Counted from the stretch's first letter, positions 2,070 through 54,685 are shown. The stretch: DNA of 64,000 nucleotides from Anaerolineae bacterium (GCA_021463865.1 JAJTXY010000004.1:62001-126000), one strand, 5' to 3'. Notes: a model not told the origin generated them from the letters alone. Made by a program: numbers and translations.

Positions 2070-2927
2070 ATGCACATCCGCAAAATTGCACCAGATAAGT
2101 TGGAGGCAGTGGTTGATTTAATTGCCCGTCTGCAACCCGATGAAGAACACCACATTGGCTATTTTGGCATGGAAGCCGATGACATCCGCCAATATTTGCT
2201 GGAATTTACACATGGATGGGAAAACTCAATTGTGGTTGCCCTACATCGGGAGCAGTTGGTGGGATGTTTGGCGGTGGAGTGGGATGCGGAAATCGGGCGA
2301 ACATGACTGCATGGCCCGTGTATTGACCATGTGGCGTGGCATATTATCGCGGATAAGCTCTATGCGGAGGCACAAGAATTAGGCGTGCTGCCAAAGGGAC
2401 TGGTAGAGGAGCTTTTTGGCGATGTGGTCAATGTCAAATTAGGGGCATTTGCGCGGCGACATCATTTCCGCAAAATGGAAGGCTATCAGGCTGTTCTTCG
2501 TTTTAGGAAAGAACAACTGGAATCCCTCCCCGCTTTAGAAGCCGATTTATTAGAAGGCCAATATCACAGCGCGTTCATCGCATTACATGAAAAAACCTTC
2601 CCATGTGCCTATTATAAAGGGCAGCAAATCCTTGACCGACTCAATGAGCAAAATCGGGTGTTGGTTGTAATGGAGAACAACACCTTACTTGGCTATATCT
2701 ACGCTCAAATAGATACAGGTGGGGACGGCTATCTTGATTTTGTTGGAGTGGCAGAACACGCTCGACGGCAAGGCATCGGTAGGCGCTTGGTAGTAGCCGC
2801 CACCCGTTGGTTATTGTCATATGAAAATGTTCCGCAGGTCAATTTGACCGTCAGCAGCACCAACCGCGCCGCCATCGAGCTATATCTCAAGATTGGGTAT
2901 GAGCATTTGTGGACGCTGACGGCCTAG
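2070..2927 (+). pseudogene. two-domain GNAT acetyltransferase interrupted by one in-frame TGA
   Basis: Translation starts at ATG 2070, two bases after the preceding stop, and runs 78 codons to TGA at 2304-2306. The same frame then continues open to the stop at 2925-2927 (285 sense codons if the TGA is read). Reading across gives EIGRT-(stop)-LHGPCIDHVAWHIIA, and a Trp at the stop fits the family pattern, so a single TGG to TGA change explains it. The second half is a recognisable GNAT domain with the acetyl-CoA loop RRQGIGRRL and the NRAAIELYLKIGY end motif; the first half looks like a degenerate GNAT copy. The downstream half has no clear ribosome binding site of its own. It could be a recent pseudogene, a sequencing error, or read-through (the stop is followed by C, a leaky context). 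Confidence 0.75.
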
Positions 2928-2943
2928 CGCAAACGGCCTAGCG
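2919..2943. repeat. 11-base direct repeat with 14-base period at a convergent gene junction
   Basis: ACGGCCTAGCG occurs at 2919-2929 and again at 2933-2943. The first copy contains the TAG stop of the rightward GNAT gene (2925-2927). The second contains CTA, the stop codon of the leftward AlkB-like gene (2938-2940). It looks like a short tandem duplication that separated the ends of two genes that otherwise would overlap. Confidence 0.7.
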
Positions 2944-3513
2944 TTGTAGAATGACCTTACGGAATGTCACGGATACCCGCCGACCCCGTTTAATGACTTG
3001 CCCATGCAATACATCACTTTTTCGTGCCGGAATCCCGTGCATCCATTTGTAGCGCGATTCGCCTTGCATCACGATTAGCGTTCCCGGTGTCAACAAAATT
3101 GGGATTTCGCGCTGGGTGGCAATTTCGGTGTAGACCATCACGCAGGCCGACCCTAAGCTAATTGAGATAATCGTATCGGTAAAACAGGGGATGCAGTCCA
3201 CATGCCGCGCAATGCCCTGCCCCGCTTCGTATTCGTTGAGGATGGCTTGATCGGGTACATCGGCGATATAGCCCTCGGCATGAAGGCGCTTGGCAATTGG
3301 GGTTAACCATTCCGGCAGCGGCCCCAGATAGAAATTCTCATCCACTTTGCGCGTTTTGTAATCATAGCGATAGCCGTAATGCTGCACGCGGCGTTTTAGA
3401 TCGGTCACCCATGTTTGTTGGTCAATTTGGAGCAACAATCGGGCTTGTTCGTCGGGATTTAGGTAATCGAGGCGATAGGTTAAACCGGGGATTTCGGCAA
3501 TCACGGAGGTCAT
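2938..3513 (-). CDS. AlkB-like Fe(II)/2-oxoglutarate dioxygenase
   Basis: The protein has 191 residues from the ATG at 3513, which is preceded by AAAGGA nine bases upstream; a GTG at 3603 would add 30 residues but has no ribosome binding site. It carries the AlkB-type double-stranded beta-helix: the iron ligands His104 and Asp106 in ARHVDCIPCF, a third ligand His159 in KWMHGIP, and the 2-oxoglutarate-binding arginines Arg179 and Arg185 in GRRVSVTFR. NEYEAGQGI before the first ligand is also typical of AlkB/ALKBH. Family members oxidatively remove alkyl groups from DNA or RNA bases, or act on tRNA or protein. Being monocistronic and convergent with the GNAT gene, its context does not tell which. 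Cytoplasmic; no signal sequence. Confidence 0.85.
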   Translation of the reverse strand: MTSVIAEIPGLTYRLDYLNPDEQARLLLQIDQQTWVTDLKRRVQHYGYRYDYKTRKVDENFYLGPLPEWLTPIAKRLHAEGYIADVPDQAILNEYEAGQGIARHVDCIPCFTDTIISISLGSACVMVYTEIATQREIPILLTPGTLIVMQGESRYKWMHGIPARKSDVLHGQVIKRGRRVSVTFRKVILQR

Positions 3514-3676
3514 GGAGGAGTATCCTTTCCAATTGAGCATCGGTGTAGATAGTATACAGTAGAATATTTGTTCTATCAATTCCTCTTTTTTGAAATCCCT
3601 CACGAGATTTTTCCATGTAGCAGTTTCCCATCAGGCCCATTATCATTAACAAGTGTACTCCGATACATGTTTAACG

Positions 3677-5902
3677 ATGGGAAGCCGCATGGGGTCACTC
3701 AATCCAAATCTGATTTCTGCCGATTTGACGGTCATCATAAATGAAGCTGTGGAATTGGCCCGCCGCTATATGAAACGCAATATCTATCCCGAACTGGTGC
3801 TGTTCGTGATGATACAGCATCCCGAAATTGCTGCTCGTCGGTTAATGGACGTATTCATCGAAAAACGTGGGACTGATCTTGAAAAATTGGAACGCCAAAC
3901 CCGCAACGCCATGGAATCGCGCAACGATGCCAATGGTGACCTCGATTTTTTGATGACCACCGGGCAAAAATTCCCCCTCAGCAAACAAATGCTAGTGGCC
4001 CTCGATGAAGCCCTCAGCATCGCGCAGTCCATCGGCGAGGTGTACATTGACAGCGATCATCTACTTGCCAGCCTGACGGATCGGCGCTTGGGGACGGGGG
4101 CACTGTTGCAGCAAAATGGCATCACCGAAGGGCCTGTTTTGGATTTATTGGGAGGGCAGCCTGCCAGCAAACGCCGCCGTGAAGCATCCGGTACATCCAT
4201 AGATGTTGTGGCGGAGGCCAGAGTTGGCAATTTACGCGCCGTGCATTTCCGCGAAGACCTGCTGCGCGATATGCTCAATATTTTGTCGCAGGCCGTCCAC
4301 AAACATATTGTGCTGGTTGGGCCGGACGGAGTGGGCAAACGCACATTGGCTTATTCATTGGCACTGTTGATTACCGAAGGCAAAGGGCCGGTTGGATTGG
4401 AAAAATTCGTCCAGATTGATGAAAAAGCCTATCTCGATAATTCGGTGGAGGCTATGCAAAGCGGCATCATGCGGGCACAAGGCGGGATTTTGTTTGTGCC
4501 GCACATTCATCGTTTTTTTGGTGGCCCGGCCAAAGCTGAATTCCCCAAAGCAGGCCAAAATCTGCAAAAAGCCTTTTTGGGCTATGACCCAATCATCATC
4601 TGCACGACCACACAGGCTGAATGGGAGGGTCGCGTCAACAAGGTCAGCGCGATTGGGGAACATGCTCAAGTTTTGCGAGTGCCAGAGCCAACCCGCGAAG
4701 AAACATTGGAAATATTGGAGGTCATGCGCCCCCATTTGGCAGGCGATTACGCAATAGATGTGGATGAAAGTGCCCTCAACACAGCGGTAGATTTAGCCAA
4801 GCGCTATATCGGCAATATGCCCCTGCCCCGCAGCGCCGAACATCTGCTGCATCGGGCTGCCGCGCTGGTCAGCATGAACAGTCAGCAGCATCTCGCCTTC
4901 CGACCCCAGTTGCAAGACAACGTGCTGGATGCCGAAGATGTCACCCTTGCTGCCGCGCAGATGACGGGTATCCCGGTCAGTAAATTGGACGCCGATGAAC
5001 GCACCAAATATGCCCGTATGGTGGAACATCTGCATGAACGCATTGTGGGCCAAAATGATGCGGTGCTGGCGGTCAGTCGGGCGGTGAAAACGGCAAGGGT
5101 CGGCCTACGTGACCCCAAACGTCCTATCGGGTCATTTTTGTTTCTGGGGCCAAGCGGGGTTGGCAAAACGGAATTGGCACGGGCGCTGGCGGAATTTCTC
5201 TTTGGTAGTGAAGACGCCATGCTGCAAATTGATATGTCCGAATATATGGAAGAAAACACGGTCAGCCGTTTGGTGGGTGCGCCTCCGGGTTATGTCGGCT
5301 ATGAAGGCGGCGGTCAATTGACAGATCGTGTGCGCGAACAGCCGTATATTGTCGTGTTGTTTGATGAGGTCGAAAAAGCCCACACCCGTATTCTGGACAT
5401 TCTATTGCAGGTCTTGGAAGAAGGTCGCCTGACCGATGCACAGGGCAAAACCGCCAATTTCAGCGAGAGCGTGGTCATCCTCACCAGCAATCTCGGCGCA
5501 AAGAATTTACAGACCTCGGTGGTTGATGAAGCGGTACGTGAATTGGTCATGGACGATGTACGCGATCACTTCCGGCCTGAATTTTTGAACCGCCTCGACG
5601 ATATTATCATTTTCCACGCACTGGACGATGAACATCTACGCGAGATTATGGAGCTTCTTTTGGCGCGAGAAATTAAGATTGCCCGTGAGCGTGGGTTAAA
5701 CTTGCAATTTACCGACAAAGCCGTCGCGTGGATGCTGGCCCAGAATGATAACCCTGAATTGGGGGCACGTCCGCTGAAGCGCATTATTCAACGGTATGTA
5801 CGGGAGACATTAGCTGATTTTCTGTTGGGTGATACCTTGCCCCCCAATGCCACGATTGTGATTGATGCCAAGCGCGACGGCTTAAAATTCGCGGTGAAAT
5901 AA
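3677..5902 (+). CDS. ClpA/ClpB-like double AAA+ unfoldase
   Basis: About 741 residues from ATG 3677 (alternatives are GTG 3653 and ATG 3689; none has a strong ribosome binding site). An N-terminal Clp repeat domain (about 1-140) is followed by two AAA+ modules. AAA1 has Walker A GPDGVGKR (215-222), but the Walker B region reads GGILFVPHIHRF and lacks the usual Asp-Glu. AAA2 is intact: GPSGVGKT (491-498), VVLFDEVEKAH, ILTSNLGA, FRPEFLNRLDD and the GARPLKR sensor 2. There is no coiled-coil M-domain, so the length is that of ClpA rather than ClpB or ClpC. The IGL/VGF loop that docks ClpP is also not seen between the TSNLG and FRPEFLNR motifs. It probably remodels proteins; coupling to ClpP is doubtful. 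It appears monocistronic. Confidence 0.85.
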   Translation: MGSRMGSLNPNLISADLTVIINEAVELARRYMKRNIYPELVLFVMIQHPEIAARRLMDVFIEKRGTDLEKLERQTRNAMESRNDANGDLDFLMTTGQKFPLSKQMLVALDEALSIAQSIGEVYIDSDHLLASLTDRRLGTGALLQQNGITEGPVLDLLGGQPASKRRREASGTSIDVVAEARVGNLRAVHFREDLLRDMLNILSQAVHKHIVLVGPDGVGKRTLAYSLALLITEGKGPVGLEKFVQIDEKAYLDNSVEAMQSGIMRAQGGILFVPHIHRFFGGPAKAEFPKAGQNLQKAFLGYDPIIICTTTQAEWEGRVNKVSAIGEHAQVLRVPEPTREETLEILEVMRPHLAGDYAIDVDESALNTAVDLAKRYIGNMPLPRSAEHLLHRAAALVSMNSQQHLAFRPQLQDNVLDAEDVTLAAAQMTGIPVSKLDADERTKYARMVEHLHERIVGQNDAVLAVSRAVKTARVGLRDPKRPIGSFLFLGPSGVGKTELARALAEFLFGSEDAMLQIDMSEYMEENTVSRLVGAPPGYVGYEGGGQLTDRVREQPYIVVLFDEVEKAHTRILDILLQVLEEGRLTDAQGKTANFSESVVILTSNLGAKNLQTSVVDEAVRELVMDDVRDHFRPEFLNRLDDIIIFHALDDEHLREIMELLLAREIKIARERGLNLQFTDKAVAWMLAQNDNPELGARPLKRIIQRYVRETLADFLLGDTLPPNATIVIDAKRDGLKFAVK

Positions 5903-21980: not shown

Positions 21981-23660
21981 ATGACAACCCCCAAATGGTG
22001 GACAAACGCTGTGTGCTATCAGGTTTACCCCCGTTCTTTTGCAGACGGGAATGGTGATGGCATCGGCGATTTGCTTGGTATTATCGAAAAACTGGACTAT
22101 CTTCAATGGCTGGGAGTCACAGTAATTTGGATATCTCCCTTCTACCCCTCCCCCCAATTTGATGTTGGTTATGACATCTCGAATTATCATGACATAGACC
22201 CAGATTATGGCACACTGGCCGATTTTGACCGTCTGATCGCAGAAGCGCATAAACGGGGTATTCGCGTGCTGCTCGATCTGGTACTCAATCATACCTCCGA
22301 TCAGCATGACTGGTTTCAACAATCACGTTTGGGCAAAGACAATCCCTACCATGATTGGTACGTATGGCGGAGCGGTAAAAATGGCGGGCCACCCAACGAC
22401 TGGGAGTCTATTTTTGGTGGTTCGGCGTGGGAATATGATGAAACGCTGGATCAATACTACTATCACTATTTTTTCAAAGAGCAGCCTGATCTCAATTGGC
22501 GCAATCCCGAAGTCAAACAGCGTATGTTTGATGAGGTGCGTTTCTGGCTGGATCGCAGTGTGGATGGCTTCCGCTTGGACGCAATTGGCGCGATTTATGA
22601 AGACCCCGGCCTACCCGATGCCCATGTAGATGTAGGTCTCGAAGAATTGTTCCTCAATTGGACGATGGGGGTATCGGAAGACACAACCAAGCAATTCCGT
22701 GCCAAAATTCGCTATCAAGATGATCTACCGGAAAATCATGGCTTGATGAAAGCCCTGCGTGCATTGATTGACACCTATGATGACCGCATTTTGCTGGGGG
22801 AAACCGACGATCCACGTTACTACGGGGATGGCACAAATGAACTCCATTCCGTGTTTAATTTTGACATCCTGCGCTTCCAAAAGCACGAAAATTTACAGGC
22901 CAGCCAGATTCGGCAAAAATTGGCAGACCGCGCCAAATTGCTGCCGAAGGGAGCGTGGGAATGCAACACGGTGGGCAATCATGACATAACACGCTCATTT
23001 ACCTTTTATGGGGATGATCGCAATCGGCATCAGGTTGCGCTGGCAATGGTGACACTGCTGCGCGGGACACCCGTATTTTATTATGGCGAAGAAATCGGTA
23101 TGGCCGATTATCTGATGCAGGAGATCGAATGGTTCAAGGACAACCTTGGTATATGGATTTATGGGGTGTTACAGCTCAAACGCCAGCTTTCGTCCGAAAA
23201 AGCACTGACCTTTGCGAATATTATGGGGCGCGATAAATGCCGCACCCCCATGCAGTGGCGAAACGCACCTAACGCTGGTTTTTCGCCTGCCGACATCACC
23301 ACATGGTTGCCCGTCAATCCCAACTATACAGAGGGTATCAATGTGGAAGAACAGCGCGAAAATCCTGATTCGACGCTAAATTATCTACGCCGTCTTATCC
23401 AAGTGCGACAAGCCCATGAAGCGCTGCGTGATGGAGAACTCGTCATGCTAGATACCGAGGATGTTTTGTCGTTCTGGCGCAAAACTCCTCACCAAAGTTG
23501 TTTCATCGCCCTCAATATGTCCAACCAACCCACCACGCTGCAACTTGAAAATCAGGCCGTGCGCCCAATTTTCTCGACTCACGCACGTAGTAGTGAATCC
23601 GATCATTTGGCTGCGTTCAAACTTCATCCCTATGAGGTTTATATCGGCATCCAAGAATAG
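21981..23660 (+). CDS. GH13 alpha-glucosidase (oligo-1,6-glucosidase/maltase type)
   Basis: A 559-residue cytoplasmic enzyme (no signal peptide) with the full GH13 set: VLLDLVLNHTS (region I), DGFRLDAIG with nucleophile Asp200 (region II), ILLGETDD with acid/base Glu274 (region III) and VGNHDITRS with Asp335 (region IV). The start YQVYPRSFADGNGDGIGDL and the length fit the alpha-glucosidase/oligo-1,6-glucosidase subgroups. It hydrolyses imported alpha-gluco-oligosaccharides, probably maltose, isomaltose or similar. AAAGG precedes ATG 21981. It converges on the MalEFG-like transporter genes, which fits a joint pathway. Confidence 0.9.
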   Translation: MTTPKWWTNAVCYQVYPRSFADGNGDGIGDLLGIIEKLDYLQWLGVTVIWISPFYPSPQFDVGYDISNYHDIDPDYGTLADFDRLIAEAHKRGIRVLLDLVLNHTSDQHDWFQQSRLGKDNPYHDWYVWRSGKNGGPPNDWESIFGGSAWEYDETLDQYYYHYFFKEQPDLNWRNPEVKQRMFDEVRFWLDRSVDGFRLDAIGAIYEDPGLPDAHVDVGLEELFLNWTMGVSEDTTKQFRAKIRYQDDLPENHGLMKALRALIDTYDDRILLGETDDPRYYGDGTNELHSVFNFDILRFQKHENLQASQIRQKLADRAKLLPKGAWECNTVGNHDITRSFTFYGDDRNRHQVALAMVTLLRGTPVFYYGEEIGMADYLMQEIEWFKDNLGIWIYGVLQLKRQLSSEKALTFANIMGRDKCRTPMQWRNAPNAGFSPADITTWLPVNPNYTEGINVEEQRENPDSTLNYLRRLIQVRQAHEALRDGELVMLDTEDVLSFWRKTPHQSCFIALNMSNQPTTLQLENQAVRPIFSTHARSSESDHLAAFKLHPYEVYIGIQE

Positions 23661-23728: not shown

Positions 23729-24730
23729 TTAGCCCTTGACCGAGCCGAGCGTCAGCCCGCCAACCAACCAGCGGGAGCTATAGAGAAACAAGATCAACAC
23801 CGGAATGGTGATGAGTACGGAACCCGCCGCAAACGTCCCCCATTGTGTTTGAAATTGAAGGATAAGCGAGTTCAACCCAAGCGGCCATGTTTGCATAACC
23901 TCCGCTTTCAGAATGACATTGGCGACCATGTATTCATTCCACGCGCTGAGGAAGTTGAACAAAAAGATGATGGCGAGCGCAGGGGTAGACAGTGGCAAAA
24001 TTACGCGCCAGAAAGCCATCATACGGGTTGCACCATCCACCATCGCGGCTTCCTCAAGGTCAAAGGGAATCGTGTCATAGTAGCCACGCAAAATCCAGAT
24101 GGATAATGGAATGGCGGTGGTAGTATAGGCCAGCGCCAAACCCAAGACATTGTTTGTTAGATTTAAGCGGGCAACAATGATGTAAATCGGAATCAGCAGC
24201 ATCCCGGCGGGAATCATCTGCGTGGAAAGCAGCAGGAACAGGCCCAAATTACGTCCGGGGAACTTCCAGCGCGAGAAGGCATAGGCACTGGTCGCAGCAA
24301 CTACCACACCGAGCAGCGCCACTGAAACCGTAATGATAAGGCTGTTCCACACCCATAGACCAAAATCATGTTCGTCGAAGAGGTTTTTGTAGGAATCTAA
24401 ATTCGCGCCGTCTGGAATAATCGCCAGCGAGGTCGAAAGGAGATTTTGGGCAGGACGTAGTGAAATCGTCACCACACGCGAGATGGGGTACAAGGTGAGA
24501 ATGCAGTAGAAAATCAGGAAACCATGCGTTGGGTAGGCCACTGCAATCGCTAACCAAACGGCGCCACCCGCTATAAACAGATTACTGTTGATTAGCGCCA
24601 GCACCAGTCCCAAGATAAGGATAACGATGCTGCCAATCCCACGCCCGCGCCGATACCACAAGGTCGAGGGTGTTTCGAATTCACGGGTTTCCCAAAAGCG
24701 TTTTTTCCAATCTTGCGATATTGTGGTCAT
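23729..24730 (-). CDS. sugar ABC transporter permease, MalG type
   Basis: A 333-residue inner-membrane protein. The N-terminal about 50 residues are cytoplasmic and charged, followed by two closely spaced membrane segments and the MetI-like fold with the EAA loop EEAAMVDGATRMMAFWRVILP that contacts the ATPase. It is longer than E. coli MalG because of the extra N-terminal helix pair. Its ATG overlaps the stop of the MalF-like gene (ATGA), which means translational coupling. The last gene of the malE-malF-malG-like leftward operon; no ATPase gene follows. Confidence 0.92.
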   Translation of the reverse strand: MTTISQDWKKRFWETREFETPSTLWYRRGRGIGSIVILILGLVLALINSNLFIAGGAVWLAIAVAYPTHGFLIFYCILTLYPISRVVTISLRPAQNLLSTSLAIIPDGANLDSYKNLFDEHDFGLWVWNSLIITVSVALLGVVVAATSAYAFSRWKFPGRNLGLFLLLSTQMIPAGMLLIPIYIIVARLNLTNNVLGLALAYTTTAIPLSIWILRGYYDTIPFDLEEAAMVDGATRMMAFWRVILPLSTPALAIIFLFNFLSAWNEYMVANVILKAEVMQTWPLGLNSLILQFQTQWGTFAAGSVLITIPVLILFLYSSRWLVGGLTLGSVKG

Positions 24731-27486
24731 TTTTCATAGATTCCTTTCAATGCGCCGCTTTGAGTGATCCAGACCGAAGCGAACAATATGAGGACGACAA
24801 AAATCACCAGTGAGAAGGCCGCCGCAAAACCAAGTTGGAATTGCCCATTGGCGCCGAATGCTGCGTTGTAGAGTGCCGTCACCAAAATATTGGTGCTTTC
24901 GTTTGGCTCACCCCCCGTAATCAAAAAGATGACATTGAAGTTATTGAAAGTCCATATCACGTCCAACGTGACGATAGGCACTGCCACCGGACGGATGAGT
25001 GGAACCGTGATATGCCTAAAACGCTCAAAGGCATTCGCCCCGTCCATCGAGGCCGCTTCATAATAATCCGGCGCAATGGATTGCAGCCCACCCAACAGCG
25101 TCACCAGATAGAAGGGGACGCCCAGCCAGATATTGACAAATGTCACCGCGACCAATGCCGGAGTAGGCCTAAAGAGCCACTGGACAGGTTCAAAGCCAAG
25201 CTCTTGTACAAGGGCATTGACAAAGCCAAATTGGAAGTTGAACTCCCCCCGCCATGCCAGTGCGATAATCACCTGTGGGATCGCCCAAGGTAGGATAATA
25301 ATGGCGCGATAGATACCTGTAAATTTCAGGTCTTTTTGATTGAGGATTAGCGCCAAAATCATACCGAAAAGCAGATGGAACAGGACATTAAAGGATGTCC
25401 AAATCAACGTAGTGCGCATCAAGCGCGGGAAGGTTGAATTTTCGGTTTGCAGCAAGCGCCCCCAGCCCAAAATCTCACCTGTTGCGGGGTCTTCATCTAC
25501 AAACACCCGTTTAAGATTGTTCCAGCCATATTCTAAGCTGTAGAGGACAATTTCACGGTCAGTCGTCACGCGCTGTTCCGGCACGGCTTCGACCCAACCT
25601 ACAAGGCCAGCTTCAGTACGGATTTGATGCCAATAGCGCTGTTCTTCATCTCGCGGGGTAATGGTAGCGCCGCTGGCGACCTCACTCAATGTTTCAGAGA
25701 GACGCGAGGGTTCAGTGTGTAGTGACCCATCTTCAGAATTTGTAAAAATGGAACGCACATCCGCAGGTTCAGCGTTCACCCATCCAAGCAAGCGAGCCTC
25801 GTCACGAGTTTGAACTTGATACCAAGGGGCGTCTTGGGTACTGAGAACATTTAGGTCAGTATCTTCGGCAAAGGTCGTTACGATTTCACTAGTATCGTTA
25901 AAGGCGGCATAGGCGTTGATTTCGGTAGGGGCCGCATAACGTTCAATCACGCTGTCTGGTTCGATATTGGTGAAACCAGAGGTGCCATCTTCTAGGCGCA
26001 GTTCATACCAAGTCAATTCACCTGTGTCGAATTCTTCAACCTGTGTACCGCCGGGTAGCGTGGCAACGACCAGATTGCTCTCCAAATCGGCAATCAAGGT
26101 GGTGGTGTCGGGGACGATCACAATATCCGTAAATGCTTCAGGGGTCGCTTGTATCCATCCTTTGACATTTTGATCGGTCTGAATGTAGTACCAGATGGTG
26201 TCCTCAACCGTCGTGCTGCTGAGGTTGACCACCAATTCACCGGTTTCAACACTGCCAAGTATCTGTATATCCTCGCCTTCAGTGGCGCTCAAGATGTCCT
26301 GCGATTCTAAAATTTCGAAGGCCTCGACAGTCTCCGGTTGTATATTAACCCAACCACGTTGGCCGACGAGATCACTGACCTCGTACCACGTTTCGGTTTG
26401 GCGGCTAGCGATACGCGCATTTTGATCGGCAGGGAGAGTGGCGGCCTGTTCCGACAAATAGTTGGCTTCGCTAAAAAGTAGAACATCTTCCGACGGATGA
26501 TATAGCTCAGTAACGGTTAACTCCGCATTTACCCAAGCTGTGCCTTCGGGTGTCTCAACTTCGTACCAAGTGAGGGGTTGATTACGCAGCATGTTAACTT
26601 CTTGGGCAGCGCTGATTTCGCCAACCACCTCACTGTCAGTGCTCTGATCATCGTACAGCGTCAAAGTCTCAGTCGGGATATAGAGATTGACCTGACGGGG
26701 TTCCGCTGTCACCCAGCCAACCGTGCCATCGGTGGTTTCGATTTGATACCACATTTCACTTTCGCGTTTGACCAAGCGGACTTGTTCGCCTGAAGCCACG
26801 CTTCCGATCACCTCACCACCCGCCGCTGATTCCTCATACAGGTCGCCACCTGCCGACATGAAAAAGGTGCTGTCTGGAATCCAACCTACCTCACCGTCGG
26901 ACGTTTTGATTTCCCACCAGTCACGCTCATCTTGAACTTTGAGAGCAGCTTCGGCCTCGCGTTGACGTTGAACACAAGCAGCATCCAATGGATTACAGAC
27001 TGTGCCCGTTTCAGTGGTCGCAAAACCCGTTATGGTCGTATACCCTACTGCTTTGGAACGCCCCGTCACACGCACTTCGTCGCCGTTCTGCAATGTAAAA
27101 GCGACCTCAGATGTTTCGGATGGTTCGACCCGTACCGGAATTTCATCCAGATTGATATTGACATCCGCGTTGAGTGCCGCCTGTCCCAGTGAACAGGGTG
27201 CATTGGTAATATTCTCGTCCGGTATATAACAGGAAATGGTCTTGAGCCGCAAATCCGAAAAAGCTAGCTGAATGTTGAAAATAAAAGGATAAACCGTAAA
27301 GATCGCCAATGCAATGACCGCTGGAGCCACCAATGTAAAGGGCAGTGCATACTTCGTTTTGAAAACTTTAGTGAGTAAGAAGTAGAGTGCAGGCTCAAGA
27401 ATAATAATTCCGAGGACGGTTATACCTATCAGCGGCAGCAGATCAAGCAAGCGCTCTACGGCGATGTCAAATGTTAAGCCTTGCAT
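24727..27486 (-). CDS. sugar ABC transporter permease, MalF type, with about eight SH3-like repeats inserted in an extracytoplasmic loop
   Basis: A 919-residue protein. Two membrane segments (about 15-35 and 45-72) are followed by a roughly 600-residue extracytoplasmic region, then a normal MetI-like permease domain with the loop EAASMDGANAFERFRHITVP. The insert holds eight copies of a 65-75 residue SH3b-like unit, each with a Trp-Tyr strand and an ending like GWV-x2-EP: examples are MWYQIETTDGTVGWVTAEP and TWYEVETPEGTAWVNAE. In E. coli MalF the equivalent loop (P2) is about 180 residues and docks the maltose-binding protein. Here it may bind the wall, glycans or the SBP. Start is ATG 27486, seven bases after AGGGA. 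No frame break joins the parts, so it is one gene. Confidence 0.9.
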   Translation of the reverse strand: MQGLTFDIAVERLLDLLPLIGITVLGIIILEPALYFLLTKVFKTKYALPFTLVAPAVIALAIFTVYPFIFNIQLAFSDLRLKTISCYIPDENITNAPCSLGQAALNADVNINLDEIPVRVEPSETSEVAFTLQNGDEVRVTGRSKAVGYTTITGFATTETGTVCNPLDAACVQRQREAEAALKVQDERDWWEIKTSDGEVGWIPDSTFFMSAGGDLYEESAAGGEVIGSVASGEQVRLVKRESEMWYQIETTDGTVGWVTAEPRQVNLYIPTETLTLYDDQSTDSEVVGEISAAQEVNMLRNQPLTWYEVETPEGTAWVNAELTVTELYHPSEDVLLFSEANYLSEQAATLPADQNARIASRQTETWYEVSDLVGQRGWVNIQPETVEAFEILESQDILSATEGEDIQILGSVETGELVVNLSSTTVEDTIWYYIQTDQNVKGWIQATPEAFTDIVIVPDTTTLIADLESNLVVATLPGGTQVEEFDTGELTWYELRLEDGTSGFTNIEPDSVIERYAAPTEINAYAAFNDTSEIVTTFAEDTDLNVLSTQDAPWYQVQTRDEARLLGWVNAEPADVRSIFTNSEDGSLHTEPSRLSETLSEVASGATITPRDEEQRYWHQIRTEAGLVGWVEAVPEQRVTTDREIVLYSLEYGWNNLKRVFVDEDPATGEILGWGRLLQTENSTFPRLMRTTLIWTSFNVLFHLLFGMILALILNQKDLKFTGIYRAIIILPWAIPQVIIALAWRGEFNFQFGFVNALVQELGFEPVQWLFRPTPALVAVTFVNIWLGVPFYLVTLLGGLQSIAPDYYEAASMDGANAFERFRHITVPLIRPVAVPIVTLDVIWTFNNFNVIFLITGGEPNESTNILVTALYNAAFGANGQFQLGFAAAFSLVIFVVLILFASVWITQSGALKGIYEK
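25570..27250 (-). repeat. coding region for tandem SH3-like repeats within the MalF homologue
   Basis: Eight degenerate units of about 65-75 codons, recognised at protein level by recurring pairs: (W/T)WY-x-(I/V/L), then G-(W/F)-(V/I/T)-x2-(E/T/V)-P, followed by a hydrophobic strand and a PxE turn. The DNA copies are diverged, with no long identical stretches, so the array is old rather than a fresh expansion. Borders are approximate. Confidence 0.75.
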
Positions 27487-27604: not shown

Positions 27605-28903
27605 TTACTGCAAGTCGGCAATGCAGGTTTCAGCAAAAGCCTGTGCGTTAGCACCAGCATCTGTTGGCGTTTCACTACCACTCATCACAGCCTGATATTC
27701 CTGCGTAATAGCATCGAAAATGCAGCGCATTTCAACATTAACGGGTTGAGGCACGCCTGTTGAAAGGGCGGCGGCACTTTCACCAACCAAACGGTCTTCC
27801 GCAATCGAGGGGTCATCAAACGCAGCGAGCAATCCGGGCAGACGGCCTTGAGTAACGGTGTAGCCGAGTACGGTGGGGACATCGGTGGTGTACCACTTGA
27901 GGAATTCAACCACCACATCCAGCTTATCGCCTTCGGTCGCGGCAGGAATCATCGCATAGGTACCAGCCACTAGTGGGGCGGGTTGACCACCCTCGAACAT
28001 TGGGAAGGGTGCCAAACCAACATTTTCTTCACCGAGGGTTGCAATCATACCGGTCTCACCACCGAGGCTCCAGTCACCATTAACAGTCATGGCGGCTTTG
28101 CCTTCTTTGAACAGACCATCAAGGCAGTTGTAATCGCATTCGCTGGAAGTCACACCCAGTTCTTTGAAGCTCGCCAAGAGTTCGAGGGTCTTGATGAGGG
28201 AATCGTTATTGAGGTCGGGGGTCACACCATCGGCGGCGAAACCAACAAAGGGAACGCCATCGGGGTTAATCGCCTGCATCCATGGGAGAACCCAGAAGCT
28301 CTCACCGTGATTGAACAGGAAGGGGGTGAAGCCTTCAACGTCGGCATTGTCGGCGACCAGTTGAGCGCTCATTTCGATCAGTTCTTCAACAGTCGCGGGT
28401 GGGGTTTCAACATATTGCTTGTTGTAGATCAGCATCAGATGATTGCCTGCGCTGAAGGGGATACCCCATGTCTGACCATCGAGCACGACAGTGTTCAGAT
28501 AGACTTCCATATCAAACAATTCGTCAAGAGGTTGGACCAAACCAGCCTCGGTGAAGGGTCCAGCATGGTCAGCAACTGTCCATAGGAAATCTGGCAAACC
28601 TTCGCCCGCTAGCGCTGCGGATTGCATATTTTGACGCAGTTCTTCCACATCTAATGTTTCAATGGTCAGGGTTGAACCGGGAGCATTTTCAGCCGCCCAA
28701 GCATCAAATGCCTCTATCATTGCGGTATCGGTGTGATAGGTCTCAGATTCTTTTGACCACATCAACAGGTCAACCGCGGGAAGTTGAGCATGATTAGAAT
28801 TAGTGGAAGGGACTGAATCGGCAGCCATTGAGGGGGCAATGGCCGTAACAAGAATGATCACAACCAATGTTGCGATGCCTAAATACTTAAAAGATTTATT
28901 CAT
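27605..28903 (-). CDS. extracellular sugar-binding protein (MalE type)
   Basis: A 432-residue exported protein. The signal peptide (about 1-28) has a hydrophobic core LGIATLVVIILVTAIA and an AxA-type end (SMAAD); there is no lipobox Cys. The mature part is a family 1 solute-binding protein: LLMWSKESE at the start, LPDFLWTVADHAGPFTEAGLVQPLDEL, YGIP-like TWGIPFSAGNH, and GKAAMTVNGDWS. A Cys pair (CDYNC) and two later Cys may form disulphides. AAAGGA precedes ATG 28903. First gene of the transporter operon; with the facing GH13 gene the substrate is probably an alpha-glucoside, but this is contextual. Confidence 0.9.
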   Translation of the reverse strand: MNKSFKYLGIATLVVIILVTAIAPSMAADSVPSTNSNHAQLPAVDLLMWSKESETYHTDTAMIEAFDAWAAENAPGSTLTIETLDVEELRQNMQSAALAGEGLPDFLWTVADHAGPFTEAGLVQPLDELFDMEVYLNTVVLDGQTWGIPFSAGNHLMLIYNKQYVETPPATVEELIEMSAQLVADNADVEGFTPFLFNHGESFWVLPWMQAINPDGVPFVGFAADGVTPDLNNDSLIKTLELLASFKELGVTSSECDYNCLDGLFKEGKAAMTVNGDWSLGGETGMIATLGEENVGLAPFPMFEGGQPAPLVAGTYAMIPAATEGDKLDVVVEFLKWYTTDVPTVLGYTVTQGRLPGLLAAFDDPSIAEDRLVGESAAALSTGVPQPVNVEMRCIFDAITQEYQAVMSGSETPTDAGANAQAFAETCIADLQ

Positions 28904-48817: not shown

Positions 48818-50029
48818 ATGAAGCGTTTCGTTTTTTTAGTTGTACTTGTTGTATTGGCAGTTAATCTGCCGCTGTCCGCATCCCCCAAAGCGGTAGCCCA
48901 AACCCCTACCTTAACCATTTGGACAGATGATCAGCGCCTGCCGGTCCTCACCGAATTGTCGAAGGCATTCACCGAAGAATACGGGGTGGAAGTGGTTGTC
49001 GAGCCACAGGGCACCGAAAACACCATGAACACCATGACGCAGGGCGCTGCCACTGGCGAAGGCCCCGACCTTTTCACTATTCCGCATGACAATATGGGAC
49101 GGTTGGTAGATACAGGGGTGGTCGCTCCGATTGATCTGGGTGACAAAGCCGAATTTTTCCTGCCAAATTCGCTAGAAGCCTTCACCTATAATGGTGAACT
49201 CTACGGTGTGCCGTTCGCGGTGGAAAATGACGCGCTGTTCCGTAATGTTGACCTCGTGCCGGAAGCCCCCAAGACATGGGCCGAAGCCGCTGAAATTGGA
49301 CGGCAGTTGGTGGATGAGGGTAAGGTTGAATATGCCTTTGCCTTCCCCGATCTCGGTTACAACTACTATCCGGTCTACACCGCGTTTGGTGGCTACGTTT
49401 TTGGTCGGGACGAAGAGGGCAACTACACCGCTGATGATCTCGGCATGGACAACGAAGGCATGGTTGCTGGTGCGGAATGGGCCAACTCCCTCATCCGCGA
49501 TGGCTATGCCTCTGAGAATCTGGACTGGGAAGCCGCCCACGTTCTGTTTGAAAGCGGACAGGCCCCCTTCATCATCACTGGCCCTTGGGCGGTGGATCGT
49601 TTCAAGACCAATGAAGTGCCATATGCCATTAGTGCTTTCCCCGCCGCTACCGAAGACGGCGAACCCGGTGGGCCGTTCATCGGCGTGCAGGGTTTTATGG
49701 TCAACGCAGGCAGCGAAAATCTGCTGTTGGCCCAGACCTATCTGACCGAATTCATCGCCACCGATGAATCCATGCAATACATCTTCGACAATGACCCACG
49801 TCCTTCCGCGTGGGTGGCTGTTTTTGAAGCGACCGAAGACCCCGATATGCGCGGTTTTTCTGAGGCAGGGGTAACTGGTCAGGCTATGCCTGCCATTCCG
49901 GCGATGGGCTTTGTGTGGGATGCGTGGGAAAGCGCCGGCCTGCTGATTACGCAGGGCGAATTGACCCCCAGCGAGGCCCTTAGCCAAGCGGCTGAACAGA
50001 TTCGCACACAAATCACCGAATCTGAATAA
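48818..50029 (+). CDS. galacto-oligosaccharide-binding protein (MalE/GanS type)
   Basis: A 403-residue exported solute-binding protein. The signal peptide (hydrophobic VFLVVLVVLAVNLPLSA) ends near KAVAQ, with no lipobox. Family features include LTIWTDDQRLPVLTELSKAF, GPDLFTIPHDNMGRLV, YGVPFAVENDALFRN and GQAPFIITGPWAVD, close to maltodextrin/galactodextrin-binding proteins. GAAAGGA precedes the start. Lying between a GH53 gene and MalFG-like permeases followed by GH42, it should bind galactan oligomers. Confidence 0.9.
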   Translation: MKRFVFLVVLVVLAVNLPLSASPKAVAQTPTLTIWTDDQRLPVLTELSKAFTEEYGVEVVVEPQGTENTMNTMTQGAATGEGPDLFTIPHDNMGRLVDTGVVAPIDLGDKAEFFLPNSLEAFTYNGELYGVPFAVENDALFRNVDLVPEAPKTWAEAAEIGRQLVDEGKVEYAFAFPDLGYNYYPVYTAFGGYVFGRDEEGNYTADDLGMDNEGMVAGAEWANSLIRDGYASENLDWEAAHVLFESGQAPFIITGPWAVDRFKTNEVPYAISAFPAATEDGEPGGPFIGVQGFMVNAGSENLLLAQTYLTEFIATDESMQYIFDNDPRPSAWVAVFEATEDPDMRGFSEAGVTGQAMPAIPAMGFVWDAWESAGLLITQGELTPSEALSQAAEQIRTQITESE

Positions 50030-50075: not shown

Positions 50076-50110
50076 CCTCCTTCCATTTATTGGTTTCAAC
50101 GGTTTTTTCT

Positions 50111-51670
50111 ATGAACAAAAAAAACGCCTTTCCTGTGACCCCTTCAACCATCATCCGCCTAGTATTGGTAGGCGTGTTTGATGTGGCGGTGCTGTCGCTC
50201 ATCCGTCAATTATTGAATGACGGCAACTATCCACTTTCCGGCATTCTCGGTGTGGTGATTGTCATTATTACCCTCTGTTTTTCGCTGGAAAAATTGCGGT
50301 ACTATCGCTGGTTGGGGGTTAGCCTTGCCGCGACCACGCTTTTTGTCCTATACCCGATTCTATACACCATCTACCTCTCCACCACCAATGCAGGTTATGG
50401 GCATATTCTCACCAAGCAGGAGGCGGTGGATTTCTTGGAGAGCCAGCAATACGTTCCTGAATCGGGTCAGCAGTATAAATGGACAGCCTATCGCTCCCTT
50501 GAATCCATCGATGATTATGTACTGTGGTTGCAGGCCGAAGATGACGCCACCTTTCTCACTGGTATAGGAACTGCTACCCAACCCGCCAGCATTGGGGAGG
50601 ATGGCGTAGGGATCGCTGATGACAAGGGTATTCCGACCAGCATTCAAGGCTATCAGCGCCTTGAAAAGCGCGATACGGTTGCCATGATTGATCAATTGGG
50701 CGAACTTGAATTTGGCGTCGCACCCGATATTATCCGTATTACCAGCCTGACGGCTGCTGCCACCACCCAACAGCGGTATCGCTACCATTCCGACAGCGAT
50801 ACCCTCACCGATGCCGAGACGGGCCTTGTCTATCATCCTGACGAAGGCGTTTTTACCACCGATGATGGTCAAGAACTGCCCCCCGGTTTTAGGGTTGGGG
50901 TGGGGCTGGATAACTTCGAGCGTTTTTTCTCAAGTTCGGCGCTGCGTGGGCCGCTGGTGCGTATTATCTCGTGGAACTTCGCCTATGCCATTTTGAGCGT
51001 GTTATGCAGTTTTGCGCTGGGTCTGTTTATCGCAGTTTTGTTCGAAACTCTGCCCGGCAGGCAAATTATCCGTGCCTTGCTGATTATCCCCTATCCCATT
51101 CCAGCACTGGTTTCGATTCTTATCTGGCGCAATCTGCTTAATCCAGACTTTGGCGCACTCGTCAGCCTGCAAAACTCTATTTTCGGCACCGCCCCCAACT
51201 GGCTTACCGATCCGAAATGGACACGCATCGCCATTATCATTATCAATATGTGGCTCTCCTATCCCTATTTTTATATTGTCTCCAGTGGCGCATTACAAGC
51301 CATTCCCACCGATATGATGGACGCGGCGGCGGTGGATGGGGCGAACGCATGGCAGCGCTTTTCCAAGATTACGCTACCCCTGCTGCTAAAGATTGTCAGT
51401 CCGTTGTTGGTGGCGTCTTTTGCTTTTAACTTTAACAACTTCAACCTGATATACATCTTCAATCAGGGCAATCCACCCATCGCGGGGTCACCGATTCCAG
51501 CCGGTCACACCGATATTTTGATCTCATTTGTCTATCGCCTTGCTTTCAATTCAGCCATAAGCGATTACGGCTTAGGGGCCAGCATCTCGATTGTATTGTT
51601 CCTCTTTATCGCGGCGATCACATGGGGTCAATTCCGTTACACGCGCGTTTTGGAGGATCAAACCGTATGA
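50111..51670 (+). CDS. galacto-oligosaccharide ABC transporter permease, MalF type
   Basis: A 519-residue permease. Three membrane segments near the start are followed by an extracytoplasmic loop of about 175 residues (from about 95 to 270), as in E. coli MalF P2, then the MetI-like core with DAAAVDGANAWQRFSKITLP and FNLIYIFNQGNPP. This ordinary P2-type loop contrasts with the SH3-repeat loop of the MalF homologue at 24727. ATG 50111 is used. Its stop overlaps the next start (ATGA). Confidence 0.92.
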   Translation: MNKKNAFPVTPSTIIRLVLVGVFDVAVLSLIRQLLNDGNYPLSGILGVVIVIITLCFSLEKLRYYRWLGVSLAATTLFVLYPILYTIYLSTTNAGYGHILTKQEAVDFLESQQYVPESGQQYKWTAYRSLESIDDYVLWLQAEDDATFLTGIGTATQPASIGEDGVGIADDKGIPTSIQGYQRLEKRDTVAMIDQLGELEFGVAPDIIRITSLTAAATTQQRYRYHSDSDTLTDAETGLVYHPDEGVFTTDDGQELPPGFRVGVGLDNFERFFSSSALRGPLVRIISWNFAYAILSVLCSFALGLFIAVLFETLPGRQIIRALLIIPYPIPALVSILIWRNLLNPDFGALVSLQNSIFGTAPNWLTDPKWTRIAIIIINMWLSYPYFYIVSSGALQAIPTDMMDAAAVDGANAWQRFSKITLPLLLKIVSPLLVASFAFNFNNFNLIYIFNQGNPPIAGSPIPAGHTDILISFVYRLAFNSAISDYGLGASISIVLFLFIAAITWGQFRYTRVLEDQTV

Positions 51671-52660: not shown

Positions 52661-54685
52661 ATGAAACTTTTTGAAAAACTGTGGCACGGGGCCGATTATA
52701 ACTATGAGCAGTGGCTCGACCGTCCTGACATTCTGGCGGAAGATTTCCGGCTGATGCGCTTGACCCATTGCAATGTCATGAGCATCGGCATCTTTGCATG
52801 GTCAATGCTTGAACCCACCGAAGGCCACTATACCTTTGATTGGCTCGATCAATTGATGGACAGCCTTGCCGAAAACGGCCTCAGCGCGATTTTAGCCACC
52901 CCCAGCGCCGCCCCACCCGCGTGGTTATCGCAAAAATATCCCGAAACCCGCCGCGTCAATGAGCATGGCATTCGTCAACCCCATCGCCGCCGCCAAAATT
53001 TCTGTTATTCCTCACCTATCTATCGAGAAAAAATCGTCGCACTCAATACCCGCCTTGCCGAACGCTATCAACATCATCCAGCCCTTGTATTGTGGCATGT
53101 TTCCAATGAATACGTAGCGACCCAGTGCCATTGCGATTTGTGTTATCAGGGTTTTAGAGCATGGCTGCAACGGCGCTATGGCGACCTTGATACGCTAAAT
53201 CGGGCATGGTGGTCAACCTTTTGGAGCCATCGTTTTACCGATTGGTCACAAATCGAACCCGTTGACCCTTCTATGCACAGCCTGATGTTGGATTGGCAGC
53301 GCTTTACCAGTGACCAAGCCCTAGATTTTTTCCTTGCCGAATCCGCTCCCCTCCGCCAGATAACTCCCAACATTCCTATCACCACCAATTTTATGCAGCC
53401 GGATGTCGGCCTTAATTATTGGAATTTCGCCCTGCATGTAGATGTGGCGTGTTGGGACAGCTATCCGCGCTGGCATCAAACCGATGACCTGCAAACCGCG
53501 ATGCAAACCGCCTTTTATCATGATCTACACCGTTCCTATAAACAGGGGCAGCCGTTTTTGTTGATGGAATCCACGCCGAGTGTCACCAATTGGCAGGGCA
53601 TCAGTCGGCTGAAGAAACCGGGAATGCACAAACTCTCCTCTTTGCAGGCCGTCGCACATGGGGCCAACAGCGTCCAATATTTTCAGTGGCGCCAAAGTCG
53701 AGGCGGGGAGGAGAAATTTCATGGAGCGGTGGTCAGCCATCTTGCTTCAACCGACACCCGCGTTTTTCAGGATGTGCAGGCCCTCGGCAGTACATTGGAA
53801 AAACTCGCTCCCGTCACCGAAACAACCATCCAAGCGCCTGTCGCCCTGATCTATGACTTTGAAAACGAATGGGCTTTGAATCATGCTCAACTCCCGCGCA
53901 GCATCGGCAAGAACTATCAGGAGACCTGCCGACAGCACTATCGCCCATTCTGGCAGCAGGGTATCGCGGTGGACATTATCAACGCCGAGGCTGATTTCAA
54001 TGGTTATCGGCTGGTTATTGCCCCGATGCTATATATGTTCACGCCCGGTTTGGCTGAACGTATTGAAGCCTATGTCAAGGGCGGGGGAACATTCGTGACG
54101 ACCTATTTATCGGGTTTGGTCAATCAATCCGACCTAGTTTTTTTGAATGGCTATCCGCCTGCCCTACGTCGCACATTGGGGCTGTATGCTGAAGAAATGG
54201 ATACTCTAACCGACCACCAATTAGGGCAACTGCGGGCCTGTCCAGAAAATCCCCTGAATCTGAATGGGGACTATGAATTCCATCATTACGCCGAACTCGT
54301 TCATCCCGAAACGGCCCAAGTCTTGGCGACCTATCATTCTGAATTTTATGCAGGCTATCCCGTATTAACCGCCAATTCCTATGGTAGCGGCCAAGCCTAT
54401 TTCATTGCGGCGCGTACTGAAAATCGCTTCTTGACCGATTTTTACACCTACCTTACCAAGTGTATGGGTATAGAAAATCCACTACGCCAACCGCTGCCCG
54501 CTGGACTCTCCATGCAGGTACGCGCGAATGAAAGCCAGCGATTCGCGTTTATCATGAATTTCACCGACCATGCCATTTCAATGGAAATCGGGCAGGGGTG
54601 GCAGGATACTTTGACGGGATTGCAGTCAACATCTTCGATTACCGTACCACCGTATGATGTAGTGATTGTGGGGCAAGTCCTGTGA
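52661..54685 (+). CDS. GH42 beta-galactosidase
   Basis: A 674-residue cytoplasmic enzyme. The TIM barrel (about 1-390) has acid/base Glu150 in HVSNEY and nucleophile Glu303 in LLMESTPS. The zinc-binding cysteines of GH42 are present: Cys115, Cys156, Cys158 and Cys161 (QCHCDLCYQ). The trimerisation domain (about 395-600, with APMLYMFTPGLAERIEAYVKGGGTFV) and a small C-terminal sheet domain follow. It removes galactose from short beta-1,4-galacto-oligosaccharides. In the cluster it completes the pathway after GH53 action and uptake. Confidence 0.93.
   Translation: MKLFEKLWHGADYNYEQWLDRPDILAEDFRLMRLTHCNVMSIGIFAWSMLEPTEGHYTFDWLDQLMDSLAENGLSAILATPSAAPPAWLSQKYPETRRVNEHGIRQPHRRRQNFCYSSPIYREKIVALNTRLAERYQHHPALVLWHVSNEYVATQCHCDLCYQGFRAWLQRRYGDLDTLNRAWWSTFWSHRFTDWSQIEPVDPSMHSLMLDWQRFTSDQALDFFLAESAPLRQITPNIPITTNFMQPDVGLNYWNFALHVDVACWDSYPRWHQTDDLQTAMQTAFYHDLHRSYKQGQPFLLMESTPSVTNWQGISRLKKPGMHKLSSLQAVAHGANSVQYFQWRQSRGGEEKFHGAVVSHLASTDTRVFQDVQALGSTLEKLAPVTETTIQAPVALIYDFENEWALNHAQLPRSIGKNYQETCRQHYRPFWQQGIAVDIINAEADFNGYRLVIAPMLYMFTPGLAERIEAYVKGGGTFVTTYLSGLVNQSDLVFLNGYPPALRRTLGLYAEEMDTLTDHQLGQLRACPENPLNLNGDYEFHHYAELVHPETAQVLATYHSEFYAGYPVLTANSYGSGQAYFIAARTENRFLTDFYTYLTKCMGIENPLRQPLPAGLSMQVRANESQRFAFIMNFTDHAISMEIGQGWQDTLTGLQSTSSITVPPYDVVIVGQVL

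Follow-up and report, generated by a model that had tools for sequence, protein, structure and literature searches.

A MalF-type permease encoded by an Anaerolineae bacterium carries a tandem array of eight bacterial SH3 domains in the loop that occupies the place of the P2 domain of E. coli MalF. The gene lies on the minus strand of a 64,000-nucleotide stretch (GCA_021463865.1 JAJTXY010000004.1:62001-126000; hereafter the window, from whose first letter positions are counted). It runs from an ATG at 27486, with a GTG 3 bases upstream, to the stop codon at 24727-24729, and encodes 919 amino acids with no internal stop, as an initial annotation of the window had described. In Pfam searches the protein matches the SH3_3 family (PF08239) over nine stretches with 137.9 bits against a gathering score of 27 (E-value 1.2e-40), and the array can be divided into eight units, each with a W-Y/H/W motif (at residues 190, 246, 307, 367, 432, 493, 555 and 619). 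The initial annotation had proposed eight units of 65-75 residues each; the number stands but the length does not, since the spacing is 56-65 residues and unit 1, with ~106 residues, is longer because of an insert of ~40 residues. The two membrane helices, the MetI-like core and the EAA loop that it had recognized are borne out by the helices of the structural model, Pfam matches and invariant EAA residues. The parts of the gene, all on the minus strand, are as follows:

24727-27486, minus strand: MalF-type permease gene with the SH3 array, 919 codons and a stop (translation, Pfam, NCBIfam)
27262-27471, minus strand: two membrane helices at the N-terminus (residues 6-75; 6-41 and 47-75 in the structural model, with predicted local distance difference test scores, pLDDT, mostly of 77-92)
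27193-27231, minus strand: Cys pair of the loop base, Cys86 and Cys98 (invariant columns and alignment; present in SH3-free sister permeases too)
26857-27174, minus strand: SH3 unit 1 (residues 105-210), with Cys164 and Cys171 in its ~40-residue insert; no other unit is clearly conserved from one family to the other
26689-26856, minus strand: SH3 unit 2 (residues 211-266), with the best SH3_3 stretch at 215-260; modeled with a pLDDT of 87.6
26509-26688, minus strand: SH3 unit 3 (residues 267-326; Pfam, unit alignment)
26329-26508, minus strand: SH3 unit 4 (residues 327-386; Pfam, unit alignment)
26134-26328, minus strand: SH3 unit 5 (residues 387-451; Pfam, unit alignment)
25951-26133, minus strand: SH3 unit 6 (residues 452-512; Pfam, unit alignment)
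25756-25950, minus strand: SH3 unit 7 (residues 513-577; Pfam, unit alignment)
25567-25755, minus strand: SH3 unit 8 (residues 578-640; Pfam, unit alignment)
24730-25551, minus strand: MetI-like permease core (residues 646-919), with BPD_transp_1 (PF00528) at residues 706-905 (E-value 1.2e-15, above the Pfam cut-off) and the MalF match at 649-905
25018-25065, minus strand: EAA loop (residues 808-823), read from the sequence, with residues invariant across relatives

Structure prediction also points to an SH3 fold. Unit 2, folded singly from an alignment of 24 single units, gave a confident small SH3 barrel; a three-unit sliding alignment was not used for folding, as it had aligned by identity overlap. 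Foldseek matched this model to bacterial SH3 domains with a probability of 1.00 and a template modeling (TM) score of ~0.7, among them those of dipeptidyl-peptidase VI (PDB identifiers 3npf and 4r0k), the phage phiSM101 endolysin (4krt) and CPF_0587 (2krs). The accompanying E-value is only ~0.01 because the SH3 domain is short, and a profile search found 4krt at an E-value of 3.1e-9. In the full-length AlphaFold model most transmembrane helices are confident and the array is mostly below a pLDDT of 50, because the alignment of the array is shallow. The Pfam GW family (PF13457) also matches the array above its cut-off, with SH3_3 scoring far higher. As the array is anchored in the membrane at either end, it could reach outward only as a folded-back loop of about half its contour length, and at ~3 nm per SH3 barrel the eight units would extend to roughly 10-12 nm.

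The position of the array follows from the alignment of the permease with MalF. The best NCBIfam match is MalF (PRK10999), with permease residues 649-905 on MalF 261-510, and P2, which binds MalE in E. coli, comprises residues 91-271 of E. coli MalF (PMC3150292); residues 85-645 therefore take the place of P2, in agreement with the equivalence proposed initially, in a loop of ~560 residues as against ~180 for E. coli P2. The window protein is like MalF of E. coli and Salmonella (PF14785; PDB identifier 2r6g) in subunit type, in the placement of the loop between equivalent helices and in having MalG and MalE partners of the maltodextrin type, but it lacks the MalF_P2 domain (PF14785), for which Pfam gave no match up to an E-value of 1, and has the eight SH3_3 units instead. 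In the SH3-free sister permeases of the same order (~370-420 residues), which share Cys86 and Cys98, the loop goes from the Cys pair straight to the LYGLDYA..NF..VF segment, and the alignment places the array between C-x-L and LYGL relative to these sisters. On the reading tentatively favored below, the array would act like an enlarged P2 without being homologous to it. A MalF-type permease with a loop of the MalF_P2 type is present elsewhere in the window (50090-51670, plus strand; PF14785 E-value 2.1e-8, score 34.8 against a cut-off of 34.4), adjoined by a likely GH42-type glycosidase gene (52661-54685), the GH42 assignment resting on a reading of the sequence.

The neighboring genes place the permease in a sugar import operon:

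23729-24730, minus strand: MalG-like permease gene, with an ATGA overlap with the MalF gene (Pfam, NCBIfam)
27605-28903, minus strand: MalE-like solute-binding protein (SBP) gene, with a signal peptide without a lipobox (Pfam, NCBIfam)
21981-23660, plus strand: GH13-type glycosidase gene, convergent with the operon and kept beside it across the genus

The overlap with MalG and the non-lipidated SBP are as the initial annotation had them, and the MalG-like and MalE-like genes adjoin the permease in the same arrangement in congeneric loci. These features are best explained if the permease serves as MalF subunit in a type I ATP-binding cassette (ABC) importer for maltodextrin-like sugars. Its NCBIfam score of 146.8 bits falls below the PRK10999 equivalog cut-off of 392 bits, so the protein is MalF-like, not the enterobacterial equivalog, and the substrate sugar is inferred, not proved. 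The transported sugar is probably an alpha-glucan oligosaccharide, given the MalE-like and MalG-like partners, the GH13-type neighbor (assigned by a reading of the sequence and matches to GH13-like neighbors) and a secreted alpha-amylase with a CBM20 domain that adjoins the locus of a relative with a six-unit array. The same amylase, together with the GW-domain match, would suit an array that captures oligosaccharides or a starch-like polymer at the outside of the cell and supplies the SBP with them. However, the conserved aromatic residues of the array (WY, GW) occur in ordinary SH3_3 domains too and we know of no SH3_3 domain that binds starch, and we regard such glycan capture as very improbable.

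The array is a conserved feature of a single lineage of uncultured Chloroflexota. Full 919-residue orthologues at 95-97% identity occur in three congeneric genomes, a fourth congeneric genome being without one, and all eight units are present in four genomes of the genus. In a second taxonomic family of the order three genomes have six-unit forms of ~820 residues, a fourth being represented by a truncated contig only. The survey of relatives, for which loop length and repeat number had been the initial annotation's own questions, comprised the best 80 loci from a scan of 84,980 species; the remaining members among these are 301-420 residues long and have no array, the sisters included, and outside the order a MalF array was found neither among these 80 loci nor in 396 genomes of the class. 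The array bearers form one group (85/87) when a tree is drawn from the permease cores, with the order's SH3-free sisters lying outside it, and a single gain of the array within the MalF family is the simplest reading of this tree. The ratio of non-synonymous to synonymous substitution rates (dN/dS) among congeneric orthologues is 0.06-0.13 for the array, 0.000-0.016 for the core, ~0.03-0.05 for MalG and 0.02-0.05 for the SBP; the value of the GH13-type gene is 0.06-0.09. By these values the array is subject to purifying selection, looser than that on the core. A misassembly joining two genes, which the initial annotation had raised against itself, is ruled out by the full-length orthologues in other genomes and by this selection.

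Conservation within the loop is uneven. Between the two taxonomic families unit 1 is 46-49% identical, as against ~20-34% with no clear register for the other units, and the most conserved stretches of the loop are those next to the membrane. Unit 1 is thus old and fixed, whereas the other units turn over in number (eight or six) and in sequence. Such turnover without register, an array dN/dS that is the highest of the operon and the existence of sisters without an array would all be expected if the array beyond unit 1 were a tolerated, lineage-specific extension with no specific ligand and little function. We consider this improbable, as a dN/dS of 0.06-0.13 is still clear purifying selection and the genus has kept the complete set of eight units.

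The closest solved relatives of the units, the SH3 domains of wall hydrolases such as the phiSM101 endolysin and dipeptidyl-peptidase VI, raise another reading, already among those of the initial annotation, in which the units would attach to peptidoglycan or to some other polymer of the envelope, so that the transporter is fixed or spaced within the wall. Tandem SH3b arrays such as the ten SH3b domains of the C. perfringens autolysin CpAcp have peptidoglycan as a known or presumed ligand (PMC8470621). Within the genome, too, an M23-like peptidase and a LysM-like protein (both recognized by eye) have SH3 domains, although such domains also sit on many proteins without an evident wall role, for example kinase-like ones. 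The array shares with CpAcp and the phiSM101 endolysin the SH3_3 family, the fold, the tandem layout and the extracytoplasmic site, and differs from them in lying in a transporter loop with both ends fixed, in being very acidic and in its motif content. A regular expression for an R-x-G-P type motif, which is not a structural test, matched 34 of 41 SH3 domains that belong to other proteins of the genome but one of the eight array units (unit 1); from its position in the sequence the motif would lie in the beta 2 region. The net charge of the array is -72 over 541 residues (-13 per 100) and that of the six-unit arrays -54 to -59 over ~440 residues, whereas the 41 other SH3 domains average -0.3 per domain. 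The missing motif in seven of the eight units and the acidity of the array make it less likely, though not impossible, that units 2-8 bind peptidoglycan in the classic way, and we hold the attachment of the transporter to the wall to be unlikely, albeit less so than the extension without function. Listerial GW modules (InlB, PF13457) likewise have SH3-like repeats with a G-W motif, in keeping with the GW match, but the window array is acidic and scores far higher with SH3_3 than with GW.

Crossing the SH3_3 matches of the genome with its BPD_transp_1 matches identified one further SH3 permease (G000:C4, L031:2153-3283, plus strand), of 376 amino acids, with the domain in its first extracytoplasmic loop and a single SH3_3 match of 22.2 bits, under the gathering score of 27. 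Its relatives across Anaerolineae, in which SH3 domains were counted mostly by motif, have in this loop no SH3 domain (~290-350 residues), one (~376-405 residues) or two (~466-544 residues), and Pfam confirmed the two-domain count in two members, each matched over two stretches (56.4 bits in one and 48.9 in the other). The arrangement of SH3 domains in this loop thus recurs, and we read the two permease families as probable separate gains, since their sequences and unit numbers clearly differ. Other permeases with additional regions were seen alongside: a MalF-like permease of 641 amino acids with a PDZ_6 domain at residues 87-127 (G000:C23, L002:274-2199, plus strand; E-value 4.2e-8), and permeases of 786, 549 and 508 amino acids with long extra regions (L033:397-2757 and 2750-4399, L034:3244-4770, all plus strand), both members of the L033 pair having such a region and no clear Pfam family being found in the extra regions of the L033 and L034 permeases. 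The 4.9 Mb genome (G000) has 79 SH3_3 matches, spread over secreted proteins that include kinase-like and peptidase-like ones. One of the SH3-bearing proteins (L139; G000:C3, SH3 at 72784-72939), of 763 amino acids, shows by eye a periplasmic-binding-protein-like domain, then a single SH3 domain and then a further domain that looks repeat-like.

The two permease families bear on the proposal of the initial annotation that the array retains the unanchored SBP, which would let it replace a lipid anchor at the membrane and for which the signal peptide without a lipobox and the binding of MalE by P2 in E. coli (PMC3150292) would speak. The lipobox calls come from matching a regular expression to the N-terminus rather than from a trained predictor. 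In the MalF family the SBPs lack a lipobox at SH3-bearing loci and also at the SH3-free sister loci of the order. In the second permease family all eight SBPs of members from the order, whose permeases have one or two SH3 domains, lack a lipobox (8/8), and at least seven systems outside the order (clear cases are L162, L163, L168, L170, L171, L174 and L176) combine SH3 domains with lipidated SBPs, the Cys having been judged by eye in four of the outside-order systems; SBPs of SH3-free systems of this family outside the order also look lipidated. In neither family comparison did the presence of an array track the absence of an SBP lipid anchor, and by these calls SBP lipidation goes with membership of the order and not with SH3 domains. 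A general loss of the lipoprotein pathway in the order is ruled out by the presence of Lgt and LspA, which also counts against the array as a replacement for the anchor. The two comparisons rule out the array as a stand-in for SBP lipidation, since lipidation follows the order and not the array, and the proposed retention must be regarded as very unlikely; the best explanation is that the array would not be needed to make up for a missing lipid anchor. The sugar SBPs examined from the order (27605-28903 and 48818-50029 in the window; L156-L161, L164 and L167) lack a lipobox and their relatives outside the order are lipidated.

The reading that we tentatively favor, without giving it an even chance, is that the array has a P2-like role. 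Unit 1, conserved and Cys-containing, would act much as P2 does, at the translocator surface that meets the SBP, and units 2-8 would form a flexible acidic loop, fixed at both ends, that may hold or guide the SBP or the substrate near the translocator. The location of the array at the P2 position, the grouping of its bearers in one part of the tree, the conservation of unit 1 and of the membrane-adjacent stretches, and an acidity like that of the SBPs and the canonical P2 loop speak for such a role, alongside normal helices and a normal MetI core. Several observations weigh against it. The sister systems work with a ~60-residue loop, so that docking needs no array. The array and the SBP are both strongly acidic (four SBPs of the genome have -11.6 to -12.8 charges per 100 residues and the canonical P2 loop in the window -10.8), so the contact would not be a simple charge attraction, and the likeness in charge to P2 and the SBPs is a weak argument. 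Co-evolution of the SBP was considered as support for docking, as the identity of the SBPs is low for the identity of the cores in pairs of SH3-bearing and SH3-free systems, and was set aside because long stems lie on both sides of the tree: the SBP diverged faster on the SH3 stem and the sister stem alike, which does not single out the array. Another possibility, to which we give distinctly less weight than to the P2-like role, is that the SH3 domains form an importer antenna of a new class, a lasso at the P2 site that captures one or more SBPs or polymer-bound substrate and raises their local concentration at the translocator, an arrangement that would have evolved at least two times in Anaerolineae, in eight- and six-unit forms and in one- and two-unit forms.

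Extra extracytoplasmic domains joined covalently to the translocator are also known from GlnPQ (PMC8025302) and OpuA (PMC11065425), but those are substrate receptors, whereas here the SBP is a protein of its own and the extra domains are SH3 barrels set into a loop within the permease. In the literature searched (open-licence papers) we found no description of an SH3 array in the permease of an ABC importer, in line with the initial annotation, which knew of no described transporter with such a loop. As far as could be found, each of the parts is known and their combination and position are apparently undescribed.

The P2 domain of MalF is a well-studied extra domain of type I importers that many relatives lack, and bacterial SH3 domains are usually read as wall anchors. 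The SH3 permeases show bacterial SH3 domains built into transporters. With an unrelated domain at the place of P2, two permease families and SH3-free sisters in the same order, they offer a natural experiment on the function of this loop, and they bear on how the order keeps its non-lipidated sugar SBPs near the membrane.

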